From: Methanofastidiosum sp.
GTDB taxonomy: Archaea; Methanobacteriota_B; Thermococci; Methanofastidiosales; Methanofastidiosaceae
NCBI GenBank assembly: GCA_013178285.1
Contig: JABLXD010000005.1
Coordinates: forward strand, 1 to 64,000
DNA length: 64,000 nt
Direction: 5' to 3'
Position 1 is the stretch's first letter. Every line of letters starts with the position of its first letter. Both the position numbers and the translations under genes were made by a program. A model generated the notes under the pieces. That model was given only the letters and a program-made list of their open reading frames with translations, did not search any database and was not told where the DNA came from. Below, piece after piece: positions 15,476 through 21,622 of the stretch.

Positions 15476-16201
15476 TCAAATTAAGGCCATTACTACCCTA
15501 AGCATGATATCCCCAAAAAAGACGGCTATAAAATAACCAAAAGTAATCGGTACAACAAATGGAAGTCCGGGAGTTGCCCAAAGATTTCCTATTCCTTTTT
15601 CATTAAGTTCCTCTTTATATTTTGCAACGTCAAAATCAAGGTCTCCTATAAAAAGTTTTATCAATCTTTTTCCTTCTTTAAATTCTTCTAGGGGGTAAAA
15701 CTTCTCAGAAAGATTCTCCGTTTTAATCCTATAGCCGACTAACATTGCAATTATTTTTTTAATCTTTCCTGAATCGTATTCTTTTGGAGAATCTCCCCTA
15801 AAGATATTATAAAATAATATCACAATAGGAAGAAGAATACTTAGTATAAGTGCATTATCAAATACTGACATAGGAAATAGGCCAAATGCATATTCTTTCC
15901 CAGGAAGAGCGGGTAGAAGAGCTCCAATGCCCATTAATATCTTCCCATCACCCCCTCCAAATAAACCCAAATAGAATAATATTAGGGCAAGTCCAAACAT
16001 TAGTAAAAATACCCCGCCAGTGATTAACAAAGGTCTAAATGATTGGAATGTAAAAGATAAATAAATTGCATGGACTAATCCAACAATTGCAAGTATAATC
16101 CAATGCCACTCTTCAATTTCTCGCTTTTTAATATCAAGGTAAGAAGCATGAAAAAGGATAATTCCCCCAAAAATTATCTTTAGAATAGTTAAGTAATCCA
16201 T
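15476..16201 (-). CDS. A24-family prepilin peptidase (archaeal)
   Basis: Membrane aspartyl peptidase that removes class III signal peptides from archaeal pilins or archaellins. The 241-residue protein has about six TM helices and both catalytic motifs: an Asp in SYLDIKKREIEEWHW and the GxGD type motif in FGGGDGKILMGIG. A cytoplasmic insert of ~60 residues (KEYDSGKIKKI...NEKGIGNLW) precedes the last helix. A probable substrate is the type IV pilin at 55605. No pilus assembly ATPase is in the window. Confidence 0.9.
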   Translation of the reverse strand: MDYLTILKIIFGGIILFHASYLDIKKREIEEWHWIILAIVGLVHAIYLSFTFQSFRPLLITGGVFLLMFGLALILFYLGLFGGGDGKILMGIGALLPALPGKEYAFGLFPMSVFDNALILSILLPIVILFYNIFRGDSPKEYDSGKIKKIIAMLVGYRIKTENLSEKFYPLEEFKEGKRLIKLFIGDLDFDVAKYKEELNEKGIGNLWATPGLPFVVPITFGYFIAVFFGDIMLRVVMALI

Positions 16202-16897: not shown

Positions 16898-17800
16898 ATG
16901 ATAGAGTTTCTTGATGTTTCAAAATTCTTTGGTGATCATAAAGCCCTAGACAATGCTACAATCAGAATAGAGGATGGAACGACAATAGGAATAGTTGGCC
17001 CAAATGGTGCAGGAAAGACAACTTTGATTAGACTTCTCTGCGGTATTTTAAAGCCGTCCAAAGGCCAGATATTAATTGACGGAAAAGATCTTCAAAAACA
17101 TTCGGCCGAAATCAAAAAAATAATAGGATATCTACCAGAAGAGCCAAATCTATACGAAAGGCCAAAAGCAGGCGAACTTTTAGAATATTTTGGATTATTG
17201 TATGGAGTTCCTAGAGCTAAAGTCAGCCAAAGAGTTGATGAATTATTGAACTTAGTTGGGTTGTCCGATAGGAAGGATTGGCGAGTATCTTCTTTTTCCA
17301 AAGGTATGCGCCAAAGGCTTGCAATTTCAAGAGCCTTGATACACGACCCAAGAATAATTGTTTTTGATGAGCCTACAATGGGGTTAGACCCTCTTACCTC
17401 CAGAAAAATAAGGGATTTTATAATGGCCCTAAAAAAAGAGAAGACAATTATTTTATGTACGCACTATATGTACGAAGCAGAACAGCTATGCGATAAGATT
17501 GCAATTATCGACAAAGGAAAAATAAAAGCTTATGACACTGTTGAAAATTTAAAGAATATTTACATAAAAGAAAAGACCTTTAAGATTGGCCTTAAAAATA
17601 TAAAAAAGAATATTCTTGATAAAATATCTCAAGATGAAAATCTTAAGATAGAGAAATCTGGGGATAACTACCTTATTGTAAAAGCCCAAAGCTATGAAAA
17701 TCTAAAATATATTCTAAAAGAAGAAGTAACTTATTTCGAAGATTTAACCCCTTCTCTTGAAGAAGTTTTTATTAAACTAGTTGGTAGCAAAAATGATTGA
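16898..17800 (+). CDS. ABC-2 exporter ATP-binding protein (CcmA/NatA type)
   Basis: Cytoplasmic ATPase of an ABC exporter, 300 residues. Walker A GPNGAGKTT (~35-43), signature SFSKGMRQRLAIS (~134-146), Walker B IIVFDEPTMGLDP (~155-167), and H-loop CTHYMYEAE are all intact. A C-terminal ~80-residue extension is typical of NatA-like proteins. It overlaps the following permease gene, and the three genes 16898-20635 form one operon. Substrate unknown; NatAB-type systems export sodium or antibiotics, but nothing here decides. Confidence 0.92.
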   Translation: MIEFLDVSKFFGDHKALDNATIRIEDGTTIGIVGPNGAGKTTLIRLLCGILKPSKGQILIDGKDLQKHSAEIKKIIGYLPEEPNLYERPKAGELLEYFGLLYGVPRAKVSQRVDELLNLVGLSDRKDWRVSSFSKGMRQRLAISRALIHDPRIIVFDEPTMGLDPLTSRKIRDFIMALKKEKTIILCTHYMYEAEQLCDKIAIIDKGKIKAYDTVENLKNIYIKEKTFKIGLKNIKKNILDKISQDENLKIEKSGDNYLIVKAQSYENLKYILKEEVTYFEDLTPSLEEVFIKLVGSKND

Positions 17801-19559
17801 AAAAATGATAAGATGGGAGCTTTCAAGGCTATTTAGAAATAGAAAATTCAAAATAGCTTTTACCCTACAACTACTTGTAATACTTCTTATAATCCCACTT
17901 TTTGGTAGCTACGTGAAGGCTCTAGAGGAGGGAGGATTTTTCAATTTGTCTATTGGTGGTAAAGGTTATTTACCGATAGGCATCTCTTCTGAAAAAAATT
18001 CTCTGACGGAAATTATTTCGGAAAACAAACGATTCGATATCTTGTGGCTAGATAAAGAAGAGGGATTAGAACTGTTAGGAAATGGTAGAATATCTGCATT
18101 TTTGTTTATAGAAGAAGATTTTGAAGAAAAAATAAGAAGCTATAGATCTTCAGCAGTTGAATTATACCTAAATAATGAAAATCCGAAGAGTGTTTCGGCA
18201 TATTCTGAATTAAACAGCATACTTCTTGGTTTTAGAGATGGTGCAATAGAAGCTAGAGTGAGAGATCTCTCAATTACAGAACCAACGGTTCAACTTGTTT
18301 CCCTATCACCTTCAAACAATTCTCAGACACAGACAAGTCAAAATGTAGAAAACACTACCCAGAAACAAACACCTATTATTCCAACTAACATTCCAGATAG
18401 GCCCTCAAATTTCCAAGAACAAATAGAAAGAACAAGGCAATCTTTTGAAAATGAGCGGGGAGGGTATATTGTACTACTAGTTTTACTTTTACCATTATTT
18501 TTAAGTGGAGGGATGCTAATTGACTTGCTTATTTCTGAAAAAGAAACTAGGACTGGAGAAATGCTTTTGGCACTTCCAATAAATCGAGAAAAAATATTCT
18601 ATTCAAAATTTATTTCCATTATGTCAATTATTTTATTTCAACTGGTATTTTGGATTACAGCTCTTTACTTTTTTGGGAGAATTACAAACCCACTCGTTAT
18701 ACTGCCTCTAACTATAACGGCCGTATTACTTCTAAGCATAACGGGGCTCATTGGAGTCTATTCAAAGAACTACAAAGATTCAGCACTAATCGTTACAGTT
18801 ACATTCATACTCTTATTCTTTCTATTGTTTGGAACGTCTACATTATATGTTGCTGGTTTAAAGGAAGTTGCGGCTATATCTCCTCTTTCACTTGTAATAG
18901 CAATTGAAAATGGCACATATTCATTAAAGGAAGCTGCCATTTCAATATTGCCTTCATTTGGATTTTCCATTGGATTAATTTATCTATCTACATTTCTTTA
19001 CAAAAAGGATGAATTTTATTTTGGCCCTAGACCATCTATATCTGAACTTATCTTTGAATTTGCTGGAAAAATACATATAAAAGGCAGAACATACAGTGCC
19101 TATCTAATAGCCTTGATTTTTGGATTTATTGCAATTTTTATTTCAATAATATTTGAAATATTTTTCGGAATTATTACTATCTACTTTTCAGAATCAATAT
19201 TCGCTATATTAATGCTATGGGCAATTATAGAAGAGTTATCAAAAAGTATAGGCGTATTTTCAGCCACCAAATATTACCCATTGAAATGGCATGAAGGGAT
19301 GCTTGCAGGTATGACTTCTGGCTTTGGATTTGCTATGCTTGAAAACATTATCTTTACAATCTTTACATTAAATTTATTCCCAGATTATGCAGTAAGAGTA
19401 TTTATTATGAGAACCTTTCTTTCTGGCGGGATACACATTTTATCGACAGGCATTATAGGGATAGGTATTGCAGAAAGGAAATATATACTTCCTGCTTTTC
19501 TAACAGGGATATTAATACACTTAGCATATAACATTACTGTACTAGAGGGAGTATTATGA
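17793..19559 (+). CDS. ABC-2 permease fused to a PrsW-type intramembrane protease domain
   Basis: 588 residues from the ATG at 17793 (a TTG at 17781 is possible). The N-terminal ~410 residues are an ABC-2 permease: one TM helix, an extracellular domain of ~170 residues, then about five TM helices beginning at GGYIVLLVLLLPLFLSGGML. The C-terminal ~170 residues look like PrsW/CPBP glutamic membrane proteases: EELSK (480-484), FAMLE (E517), GGIHILSTG (H548) and ILIHLAYN (H576). PrsW usually reads HxxxD at the last motif, but here Asn replaces Asp. Such a fusion is unusual and suggests processing of an exported peptide or of a partner. Confidence 0.8.
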   Translation: MIEKMIRWELSRLFRNRKFKIAFTLQLLVILLIIPLFGSYVKALEEGGFFNLSIGGKGYLPIGISSEKNSLTEIISENKRFDILWLDKEEGLELLGNGRISAFLFIEEDFEEKIRSYRSSAVELYLNNENPKSVSAYSELNSILLGFRDGAIEARVRDLSITEPTVQLVSLSPSNNSQTQTSQNVENTTQKQTPIIPTNIPDRPSNFQEQIERTRQSFENERGGYIVLLVLLLPLFLSGGMLIDLLISEKETRTGEMLLALPINREKIFYSKFISIMSIILFQLVFWITALYFFGRITNPLVILPLTITAVLLLSITGLIGVYSKNYKDSALIVTVTFILLFFLLFGTSTLYVAGLKEVAAISPLSLVIAIENGTYSLKEAAISILPSFGFSIGLIYLSTFLYKKDEFYFGPRPSISELIFEFAGKIHIKGRTYSAYLIALIFGFIAIFISIIFEIFFGIITIYFSESIFAILMLWAIIEELSKSIGVFSATKYYPLKWHEGMLAGMTSGFGFAMLENIIFTIFTLNLFPDYAVRVFIMRTFLSGGIHILSTGIIGIGIAERKYILPAFLTGILIHLAYNITVLEGVL

Positions 19560-20635
19560 GAAAAGAAATTATTTACCTTTCAATCAAGGAATTTAAAGAT
19601 ATATTAAGAGAAAAGGTATACATACTTGCATTTATACTCCAGCTTTTCATAGTAATAGGGATAGTATTGATAGGAACATCATATGCTTACATACAGACTT
19701 ATGTCGATGACCCAACTAGCCAAGGCACATTTTTAGTTTATTCTGAAGTAGAAGGATTCCCCAATTATTTAACTGATGAATCGATCAAAAGTGTTGCTTT
19801 AAGAAATAAGAATTTTAGTGGGGCGCTTCCTAGGAATATTGACGGCATAATATGGGCCCAAAATGATAACTCCATTCAGATCCTGTTAAAAAATCAGGCT
19901 AACTTTGAAGATTTATCCGATCCCATAAAAAGAGCGTATATAAAAGCAAAATCAAAAGGAGACGTCCAAGATGAAGTTCTAAATCCATTATCTATAAGCA
20001 TATACCCAAGAGACTACACGTATAATCTTGCAGATCTATTCTTTGTAGAAATAATGCAGACTCTTTTAATCCCGCTTATATTGTTGTTGCCCATATTTCT
20101 TTCAATGAACATCTTATCTGATTCTATTGTTGGTGAAAAGGAAAGAAAGACTTTTGAAATATTACTTGCTTCACCCTTAAAAAGAATAGAAATAATTCTT
20201 GGTAAGATACTACCTACCTTTTTAATTTCGATTGTTCAGATAATAATTTGGTCACTAGTGTTAAGTGCCAGAGGCATATTTATTTTCAATTTACCTGTAC
20301 TTTTAGTATTTCTTTCAATAATAATGCTACTCCTATTTTCTATATCCATAGTGTTCTCAAATATATCCTCAAATATTACGGAGTCAAATCTTTTTCTTAC
20401 TCTTTTCATGATGGTTGTGACACTAATAATGTTTGTACCTATACCTTTGGAAAATCCTGTATTAAAAGAAATACTAAGCTATTCTCCAATTATCCCTCTA
20501 ATTAAGATTTCTTCTAATCCCTCTTTGGATTTACTTGAAATAGGAAAATACATGAGCGTTTACGCGGGGCTTGCTTTGATTTCTTTATTTATTGCTTTAA
20601 AAGGAATTTCTAAAGATGAAAATATTAGATTATAA
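19556..20635 (+). CDS. ABC-2 transporter permease
   Basis: Second membrane subunit of the exporter, 359 residues. It has an N-terminal TM helix (VYILAFILQLFIVIGIVLIG), an extracellular domain of ~140 residues and about five C-terminal TM helices. The conserved ABC-2 coupling segment SDSIVGEKERKTFEILLASPLKRIEIILGK matches the one in the preceding protein (SEKETRTGEMLLALPINREKIFYSK), so the two likely form a heterodimer. The start overlaps the fusion gene by 4 bp (ATGA). Confidence 0.9.
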   Translation: MRKEIIYLSIKEFKDILREKVYILAFILQLFIVIGIVLIGTSYAYIQTYVDDPTSQGTFLVYSEVEGFPNYLTDESIKSVALRNKNFSGALPRNIDGIIWAQNDNSIQILLKNQANFEDLSDPIKRAYIKAKSKGDVQDEVLNPLSISIYPRDYTYNLADLFFVEIMQTLLIPLILLLPIFLSMNILSDSIVGEKERKTFEILLASPLKRIEIILGKILPTFLISIVQIIIWSLVLSARGIFIFNLPVLLVFLSIIMLLLFSISIVFSNISSNITESNLFLTLFMMVVTLIMFVPIPLENPVLKEILSYSPIIPLIKISSNPSLDLLEIGKYMSVYAGLALISLFIALKGISKDENIRL

Positions 20636-20722: not shown

Positions 20723-21052
20723 TTGAAAGAAGTTAGTGTTGCTGATATTCAGAAGGAAATAGAAAAAGATATTGAAATGGGAAAGAAGATGGTCGATGAG
20801 GGAAAGAGACTTTTAGAAGAAGGAAAATACAAGTTAAATGAAAGTAAGTCAAGAATAAGAGAATTAGGAGACGAAGCAGGAATAAAACTTAAAGATTTTG
20901 AATCTAAGCATCAAGACGAAATTGATTATGTAGTAAAAGAATCTGAAAAGGCCCTCCAAGAAACAGAAATATTCATTAGAAAATACCCAATGATGAGTGT
21001 TTTTGCAGCTTTCGGATTTGGATACCTAATGGGTAAGTTATTGAGAAAGTAA
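20723..21052 (+). CDS. DUF883/YqjD-like coiled-coil protein with C-terminal anchor
   Basis: 109 residues: a long charged helical region (DIQKEIEKDIEMGKKMVDEG, KRLLEEGKYKLNESKSRI) and a C-terminal TM helix (PMMSVFAAFGFGYLMGKLL) with a Gly-rich GFGYLMGKLLRK end very like bacterial ElaB/YqjD proteins, which tether ribosomes to the membrane. TTG start at 20723, 4 bp after GGTGATTA. It heads a three-gene run of small membrane proteins. Resemblance is by motif and layout only. Confidence 0.75.
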   Translation: MKEVSVADIQKEIEKDIEMGKKMVDEGKRLLEEGKYKLNESKSRIRELGDEAGIKLKDFESKHQDEIDYVVKESEKALQETEIFIRKYPMMSVFAAFGFGYLMGKLLRK

Positions 21053-21060
21053 GTGGGACA

Positions 21061-21396
21061 ATGATAGAAACAGTGCCTCTAAATAAGCTCATTGAGTTAC
21101 TCATTAAATACATTGGAGTCTACATTAAACAGGGCGCTTCTGACGCAATAGAAGAGGCGATAAAGGAACCTATGGCCAAACTTTCAAAGATTCTTTTCCT
21201 TACAGTTGGTTCTGCGATATTGGCCTTTTCAGGCTTAGTGGCTCTTTTTATTTCACTAGTATTCTTTTTGAAAAATGTTCTTGGTAGCTATATGATGGCG
21301 TTTTTAGTTGTCGGGATAATACTAGTTATTATAGGGGCAATAGTAGGATATGGAGGATATACATATGGAAGAAAGGATAGAAAAGCAAGACATTGA
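21061..21396 (+). CDS. YqjE/phage-holin-III-like membrane protein
   Basis: 111 residues with a short amphipathic N-terminus (NKLIELLIKYIGVYIKQGAS) and two TM helices (ILFLTVGSAILAFSGLVALF; YMMAFLVVGIILVIIGAIVGY) ending in a basic tail (GRKDRKARH). The arrangement matches the YqjE or Holin-III-like superfamily, which in bacteria follows a YqjD gene as here. It overlaps the next gene. Function in archaea unknown. Confidence 0.7.
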   Translation: MIETVPLNKLIELLIKYIGVYIKQGASDAIEEAIKEPMAKLSKILFLTVGSAILAFSGLVALFISLVFFLKNVLGSYMMAFLVVGIILVIIGAIVGYGGYTYGRKDRKARH

Positions 21397-21622
21397 AAAA
21401 CTATTAAAGGAAATAAAGATGAGAATGGGATCAGAAAATGATATTCTAGAGATTATTGAGAAGCATCCTATACCTGTCCTTCTTGCTGCTTTTGGAGCAG
21501 GCGTAATTCTATCTCAAATTGATGATTTAATTATTGAAAAGGTAGAAACAGGTAAAAGTTGTCCTGCTATTGATGGCATTATGAAACTTGGGCTTCCTTT
21601 AATAATGAAAAAATTTATTTGA
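21365..21622 (+). CDS. small protein with GxG-type membrane segment
   Basis: 85 residues from the ATG at 21365 (alternative ATG at 21350), overlapping the upstream gene. A charged helical N-terminus (EERIEKQDIEKLLKEIKMRM) is followed by a short hydrophobic segment (PIPVLLAAFGAGVILSQI). That segment echoes PMMSVFAAFGFGYLMG of the first gene in this run: a Pro-rich lead into AAFG. It may be a divergent relative. No family assigned. Confidence 0.65.
   Translation: MEERIEKQDIEKLLKEIKMRMGSENDILEIIEKHPIPVLLAAFGAGVILSQIDDLIIEKVETGKSCPAIDGIMKLGLPLIMKKFI

Follow-up and report, generated by a model that had tools for sequence, protein, structure and literature searches.

A three-gene operon in an archaeon of the genus Methanofastidiosum encodes an ABC exporter in which the first of two permeases ends in a PrsW-type glutamic intramembrane protease domain. 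It lies on the forward strand of the window, the stretch of 64,000 nucleotides analysed here (contig JABLXD010000005.1, positions 1 to 64,000). The analyses below directly establish the fusion, its operon, active-site motifs that are intact and under constraint, a predicted fold and the distribution. Two distant archaeal groups have retained the active-site residues, a pattern suggesting, as far as comparison of sequences can, that one machine both cuts and exports. We give roughly even chances to the reading that the operon specifies a single ABC exporter with a tethered, competent PrsW-type protease that acts on membrane-inserted peptides or proteins.

The operon and the fusion protein

The first gene encodes a NatA/DrrA-like ABC transporter ATPase (16898..17800, +; PF00005, E 3.3e-34), the second the fusion protein of 588 aa (17793..19559, +) and the third a second ABC-2 permease of 359 aa that lacks a protease domain (19556..20635, +; PF12698 74.3 bits, PF12679 61.1 bits). 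According to the ORF coordinates, the ATPase and fusion genes overlap by 8 bases and the fusion and second permease genes by 4, and the three genes therefore look like one operon, flanked by intergenic gaps of 118 and 87 bases. Translation of the fusion ORF is uninterrupted, and an alternative TTG start at 17781 would add four residues to the protein. The order ATPase, fusion, second permease is kept in all five genus loci, with ATPase copies that are 81-89% identical; ATPase copies in two of the three sister-family loci are 48-49% identical, and the third locus begins too near a contig end.

The ABC-2 permease part of the fusion protein (aa 25-371; 17865..18905, +) matches PF12698 (ABC2_membrane_3) with 85.7 bits against a cut-off of 31.6 (E 4.4e-24) and has a large loop at about aa 45-221 after the first helix. 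This match and the PF00005 ATPase gene in the same operon place it among the ABC-2 permeases. The FGPRP junction motif (aa 410-414; 19020..19034, +), which is common to fused and unfused permeases, the latter ending soon after it, is followed by the protease domain (aa 436-584; 19098..19544, +), which matches PF13367 with 58.2 bits against a cut-off of 23.5 (E 1.1e-15). An earlier note, made from the letters of the sequence alone, had proposed an ABC-2 permease fused to a PrsW-type domain on the basis of the motifs EELSK, FAMLE, GGIHILSTG and ILIHLAYN. All four occur in the 588-aa translation, and the two Pfam assignments, each above its cut-off, mean that these motifs are not a chance match; the proposed fusion stands and is conserved in relatives. 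The CPBP/Rce1-like family PF02517 gave no match to the protein at E<=1 (hmmscan), and the CPBP/Rce1-like motifs EExxxR and F/WxxxH are absent from it, with EELSK and FAMLE in their stead.

The general Pfam model of PrsW captures the fused domains incompletely, as only five of the 12 fused rows of our alignment A3 match it at E<=0.01 (hmmscan). Two genomes that hold the fusion (G115 and G253) had no PF13367 match in the genome search, so that their assignment rests on the motifs and on the family's own profile, and the fused domain of G016 had no PF13367 match in the phylum scan although the fusion is present.

Active-site motifs and their constraint

Motif 1, EELSK (E480, E481 and K484; 19230..19244, +), is invariant in all 12 fused domains and aligns with the EExxK of 10 standalone PrsWs. 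Motif 2, FAMLE (F513 and E517; 19329..19343, +), is likewise invariant in the fused domains and aligned with the standalone proteins, and motif 3, RTFLSGGIH (R540 to H548; 19410..19436, +), has the same R-x7-H spacing as in standalone PrsWs. Motif 4 is HLAYN (H576 and N580; 19518..19532, +), with Asn in 12 of 12 fused domains and two Asn and eight Asp in the 10 standalone rows. The window's domain thus matches EExxK, FxxxE with the additional His in the next helix, and HxxxD/N, as expected of a PrsW family member.

Eleven of the 12 fused domains are 21-35% identical to that of the window, and 10 of 149 gap-free columns are invariant in all 12: Gly411 of FGPRP and E480, E481, K484, F513, E517, R540, H548, H576 and N580. 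In the alignment with the 10 standalone PrsWs these last nine residues fall one-to-one on PrsW motif positions, and the same nine columns are invariant in the standalone proteins too, except the last (Asn/Asp). The chance figure of 1e-13 disregards shared descent and conveys scale only. Our listing of standalone PrsWs leans towards intact motifs because of its motif filter (29 loci, of which 27 gave a protein passing the filter and two were dropped).

An excerpt of PMC4602095 gives motif 4 as HxxxD for PrsW and as HxxxN for type II CAAX proteases, and the earlier note had suggested that the Asn may alter activity. This suggestion is not borne out, with Asn invariant in the 12 fused domains and alternating with Asp in the standalone PrsWs of the genus. 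There the fourth motif carries Asn or Asp depending on the species (HGLFN or HGLFD), with Asn in three of the six genus proteins read and also in L001, a separate standalone PrsW encoded in the window's own genome (G000).

Judging from codon comparisons, the protease domain is under purifying selection: dN/dS against five orthologues is 0.02-0.13 for the domain, with dS partly saturated, and 0.16-0.48 for the adjoining linker (aa 411-435). Among five diverged paralogous fusions (L133-L137), an additional set found in the second phylum described below, four keep the motif Glu, Lys and His when read by eye. In the fifth (L136:2682-4490, G197) Gln replaces the motif-3 His (LLLQVSLT), and this copy is possibly an inactive form.

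Predicted fold

The tail is not a set of ordinary ABC-2 membrane helices: besides matching PF13367, aa 432-588 are predicted to fold alone as a five-helix domain (AF2 with an input of five rows, pLDDT 88.3, pTM 0.84). Mean pLDDT of the five AF2 models was 88.3, 82.7, 78.1, 56.7 and 55.6. A full-length prediction from five close rows reached a pLDDT of only 42 and was set aside. Most PrsW family members have eight helices according to an excerpt of PMC3482391; the predicted 157-aa domain has five, and its PF13367 alignment still spans profile positions 5-175 of 196.

The nearest solved chains are those of APH-1 (Z 11.8, 10.8 and 10.6; the first with rmsd 3.7 over 151 aligned residues at 13% identity), with chains of multipass-translocon and BOS complexes at Z 11.0 and 10.6 and apolipoprotein N-acyltransferases following at Z 9.2. 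For helical bundles, Z under about 13 may reflect a common arrangement, according to the advice of the structure-comparison tool, and the fold match therefore supports rather than proves membership of the superfamily in which PrsW, CAAX proteases and APH-1 are placed together (PMC4602095, in excerpt). Foldseek E-values were weak (best 0.25), a sequence search at E<=1 found no solved structure, and the viral predicted structures searched held no convincing match to the domain.

Distribution of the fusion

In a set of 61 genomes (that of the window and 60 relatives) the protein was matched in 13. Six genus members, the window's genome among them, have full-length copies (the other five are 74-83% identical to it), as do three sister-family genomes at 36-40% identity; in alignment A1 the fused domain is present in 9/9 same-order rows, window included, the other eight being 37-83% identical. 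Two of nine same-genus genomes had no match to the fusion (G005, 68% complete, and G009, 91%), and two genomes (G004 and G013) hold contig-end pieces only. Fusion relatives in named records belong to Candidatus Methanofastidiosum and Methanofastidiosia. In one further genome (G007; L032 / L009, L016) the fusion gene lies in two frames around the variable loop, which reflects a frameshift or an assembly error.

PF13367 itself is matched in 104 of 115 genomes of the phylum. ORFs of 524-603 aa account for nine of these matches, all within the family of the genus and the sister family, and the others listed lie in ORFs of 169-315 aa.

The fusion profile matched 37 of 396 genomes at E<=1e-12, and pursuit of these matches extended the fusion to a second archaeal phylum, where the family occurs in 14 of 23 genomes and a complete single-ORF fusion in 10. 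An ATPase gene adjoins nine of these 10 complete fusions, the exception being G217, and a second permease follows all of them (the copy in G269 is clipped by a contig end). All 11 PF13367 matches in this phylum (10 genomes) are in long ORFs or contig-end fragments, so the fusion is the only PrsW seen there. At the G217 locus (L093:3103-5906) fusion and second permease are present, the 10 kb fetched contain no ATPase gene, and the upstream genes run the opposite way. No relatives of the fusion were found in the viral contigs or plasmids searched, nor any of standalone PrsW in the viral contigs searched. Bacterial genomes lay outside the survey, and the fusion may occur in bacteria too.

An operon without the protease

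In the phylum of G373 the family was matched in 22 of 151 genomes. No match listed there passes profile position 425 of 560, so none of them is fused. In the loci read, the unfused first permease stops shortly past [KR]D[DE]xxFGPRP, where the fused form goes on into its protease domain; the end of the L108 copy differs, seemingly through a change of frame. PF13367 matched none of 21 unfused-lineage genomes (21 of the 22, G469 being left out). The exporter presumably works without the protease in this lineage. At one locus (L164:1925-12225, G536) other genes, about 8 kb in all, lie between the first permease of the unfused operon and a second-type permease.

Divergently upstream of the unfused operon stand a MoeA gene and, as the second gene, one for an M50/PDZ site-2-type protease in 13 of the 15 loci fetched (L096-L100, L108, L161-L166 and L169), the other two being cut by contig ends. 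The Pfam assignment of this protease comes from a scan of the L096 copy alone, and the remaining copies are its blastp relatives.

In the permease tree (50 rows, midpoint root, long branches) the 21 second permeases form one group (96/94) and the first permeases form four. Together with the fused group of the window and the diverged fusions, the unfused group makes up a cluster (100/99) that excludes the fusions of the second phylum. Should the root separate first from second permeases, the simplest history would be that the unfused lineage lost its protease, the alternative being three separate gains. In the protease-domain tree the 25 fused domains occupy one side of a 100/100 branch, with 28 standalone PrsWs on the other. 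This split fits one origin of the fused domains without proving it, since other PrsW types lay outside the sample and the tree does not settle the branching among the fused domains. The window's family and the sister family do not come together within the fused side, and a domain of such length thus does not resolve the order of events. Only tentatively do we put forward a wider history, in which an intramembrane protease would be a built-in component of an ancient archaeal extrusion machine, an ABC exporter that cuts segments buried in the membrane and expels the pieces. This machine would have arisen once and kept an intact active site in two distant phyla, while the unfused lineage would have given up the protease, for which the neighbouring site-2 protease may substitute.

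Possible modes of action

The exporter would combine the ATPase with two permeases that differ from each other, the PrsW-type protease sitting at the C-terminus of the first. We infer that this domain cuts, that cutting is coupled to transport, and that the substrates are membrane-inserted peptides or proteins handled by the exporter. E480 and E481, the two His and the Asn would hold the water for an intramembrane cut through a helix or a lipid-buried segment; the permease pair, driven by ATP, would extrude the cut piece afterwards or deliver the segment beforehand. The likely purpose would be the clearing or remodelling of membrane-embedded peptides, such as signal-peptide remnants or foreign amphipathic peptides, rather than the handling of one dedicated peptide. 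Several observations count against such a cutting exporter: the fusion of G217 without an adjoining ATPase gene, the Gln in place of the motif-3 His in L136, the existence of a lineage that presumably does without the protease, the matches of Pfam's PrsW model to only five of 12 fused rows, and the role of the fold neighbour APH-1, which is that of a scaffold. The searches also turned up neither a substrate nor an experiment.

It is possible, with a chance that we regard as small but real, that the permease pair instead reads membrane stress or a transported compound and switches the protease onto a separate membrane-anchored regulator, in the manner of B. subtilis PrsW, which cleaves the anti-sigma factor RsiW. 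Site-1 cleavage of a regulator is the role described for PrsW in excerpts of PMC4602095 and PMC9263693, and the site-2-type protease gene upstream of most unfused operons would suit such a role. However, a relative of this M50 protease was not found in the fused loci L093-L095, L101-L106 and L109-L112, and no regulator-type gene is common beside the fused operons among ORFs of at least 60 aa. Moreover, archaea are not known to have sigma/anti-sigma pairs, which also argues against a sensor of this kind.

A non-cutting domain that binds or holds membrane segments, or that stabilises the permease pair, seems unlikely to us. Such a domain would resemble APH-1 in gamma-secretase, which is a scaffold rather than a protease, and APH-1 is indeed the nearest neighbour of the predicted fold. 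The dispensability of the domain for the transporter in the unfused lineage and the loss of the motif-3 His in one paralogue are also consistent with a scaffold. Nevertheless, the nine motif residues, and almost nothing else, are invariant in 12 fused domains, 11 of which are at 21-35% identity, and a need for both Glu, the Lys and both His is not expected of a scaffold.

The earlier note had envisaged dedicated maturation and export of a bacteriocin-like peptide. For a peptide of this kind or a pheromone-like one, precedent exists in that the CAAX/PrsW superfamily includes putative bacteriocin-processing enzymes (PMC4602095) and a part in the processing and export of polymorphic toxins has been proposed for PrsW domains (PMC3482391), as the excerpts of these papers have it. 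The operon itself offers little for this proposal. The flanking gaps of 118 and 87 bases are too short for a gene of more than about 39 codons, and comparison of neighbouring ORFs of at least 60 aa turned up no peptide gene. When 127 ORFs of at least 60 aa from 13 fused loci and the window were compared (all-against-all blastp, 1e-5), links between families were confined to the permeases, the ATPase and a DNA ligase gene, and hence included no small gene of that size. The ATPase was present in 12 of the 14 loci, absent from G217 and lost to the contig start in G010. Three genes for small membrane proteins directly follow the operon (20723-21622; 109, 111 and 90 aa, the second a PF07332 holin superfamily III protein), and these are kept in 5/5 genus loci but gave no match in any of the three loci of the sister family. 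Since no peptide gene came to light, we consider a dedicated bacteriocin or pheromone quite improbable, and this part of the earlier proposal is not supported.

There is next to no probability that the likeness to PrsW is a superficial one of the final helices of an ordinary ABC-2 permease, or that an assembly error joined two genes by chance. Both domains are helical membrane proteins, but the HMM, motif and predicted-fold results, the presence of the same ORF in independent genomes and the lack of a protease domain in the second permeases and unfused first permeases compared speak against both views.

Two further features of the neighbourhood may be mentioned. The DNA ligase gene, of which one copy is a fragment at a contig end, is a common neighbour in two second-phylum families. 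Divergent from the window's operon, and two genes upstream of it, lies a gene for an archaeal prepilin-type peptidase (15476-16201, -; PF01478 with a PF06847 tail), which is present in four of the five genus loci, one of them with a partial match at a contig end. The three small downstream genes resemble the YqjD/YqjE set of E. coli.

Relation to known systems

The closest named architecture is the NCBIfam family NF041647 (ABC transporter permease subunit/CPBP intramembrane protease), which has the same order, an ABC-2 permease and then a C-terminal glutamic intramembrane protease of the CAAX/PrsW superfamily, over 636 model positions compared with 588 aa in the window's protein. The window's protein scores 41.7 bits against this model and does not reach the cut-off of 435; all 12 fused rows of A3 match it weakly (best row 93 bits), and in the four second-phylum proteins inspected the match ends at model position 485-513. 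No genome among the 115 of the phylum reaches the cut-off. The proteases also differ in their motifs, which are EExxK and FxxxE with the extra His in the window's type of fusion and EExxxR, WxxxH and HxxxN in a CPBP protein of the same genome (L170). The CPBP version of the architecture has thus already been named, and what seems new here is the PrsW version, its conserved archaeal operon and the protease-less twin. The literature searched, judged mostly by titles and the openings of abstracts, yielded no description of an ABC-2/PrsW fusion, of this operon or of the twin.

With NatAB/LanFEG-type ABC-2 exporters the operon shares its ATPase and ABC-2 permease families, and LanFEG likewise has one ATPase and two permeases; exporters of this type are not known to have a protease domain. 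APH-1, a gamma-secretase subunit, comes nearest in predicted fold (Z 11.8, under the 13 advised for helical bundles) at only 13% identity; it is not known to be joined to any transporter, nor is it the protease itself.

What intramembrane proteases release must somehow leave the bilayer, and for most archaeal ABC-2 exporters no cargo is known. Here the two parts have stayed covalently joined across a large evolutionary distance, and a natural form of the operon lacks the protease; the link between protease and export can therefore be tested directly by comparing membrane peptides and cargo between forms that have the protease domain and forms that lack it.

The window's domain shares nine motif positions with the PrsW family (B. 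subtilis PrsW and L001), with Asn allowed in the last, and differs from that family in being the tail of a permease, in having Asn for the published motif-4 Asp and in lying on the other side of the 100/100 branch. In L001 itself (L001:1351-2115, -) the tail resembles a zinc ribbon (CPKC...CPEC), and the neighbouring genes encode membrane proteins that are likewise zinc-ribbon-like.
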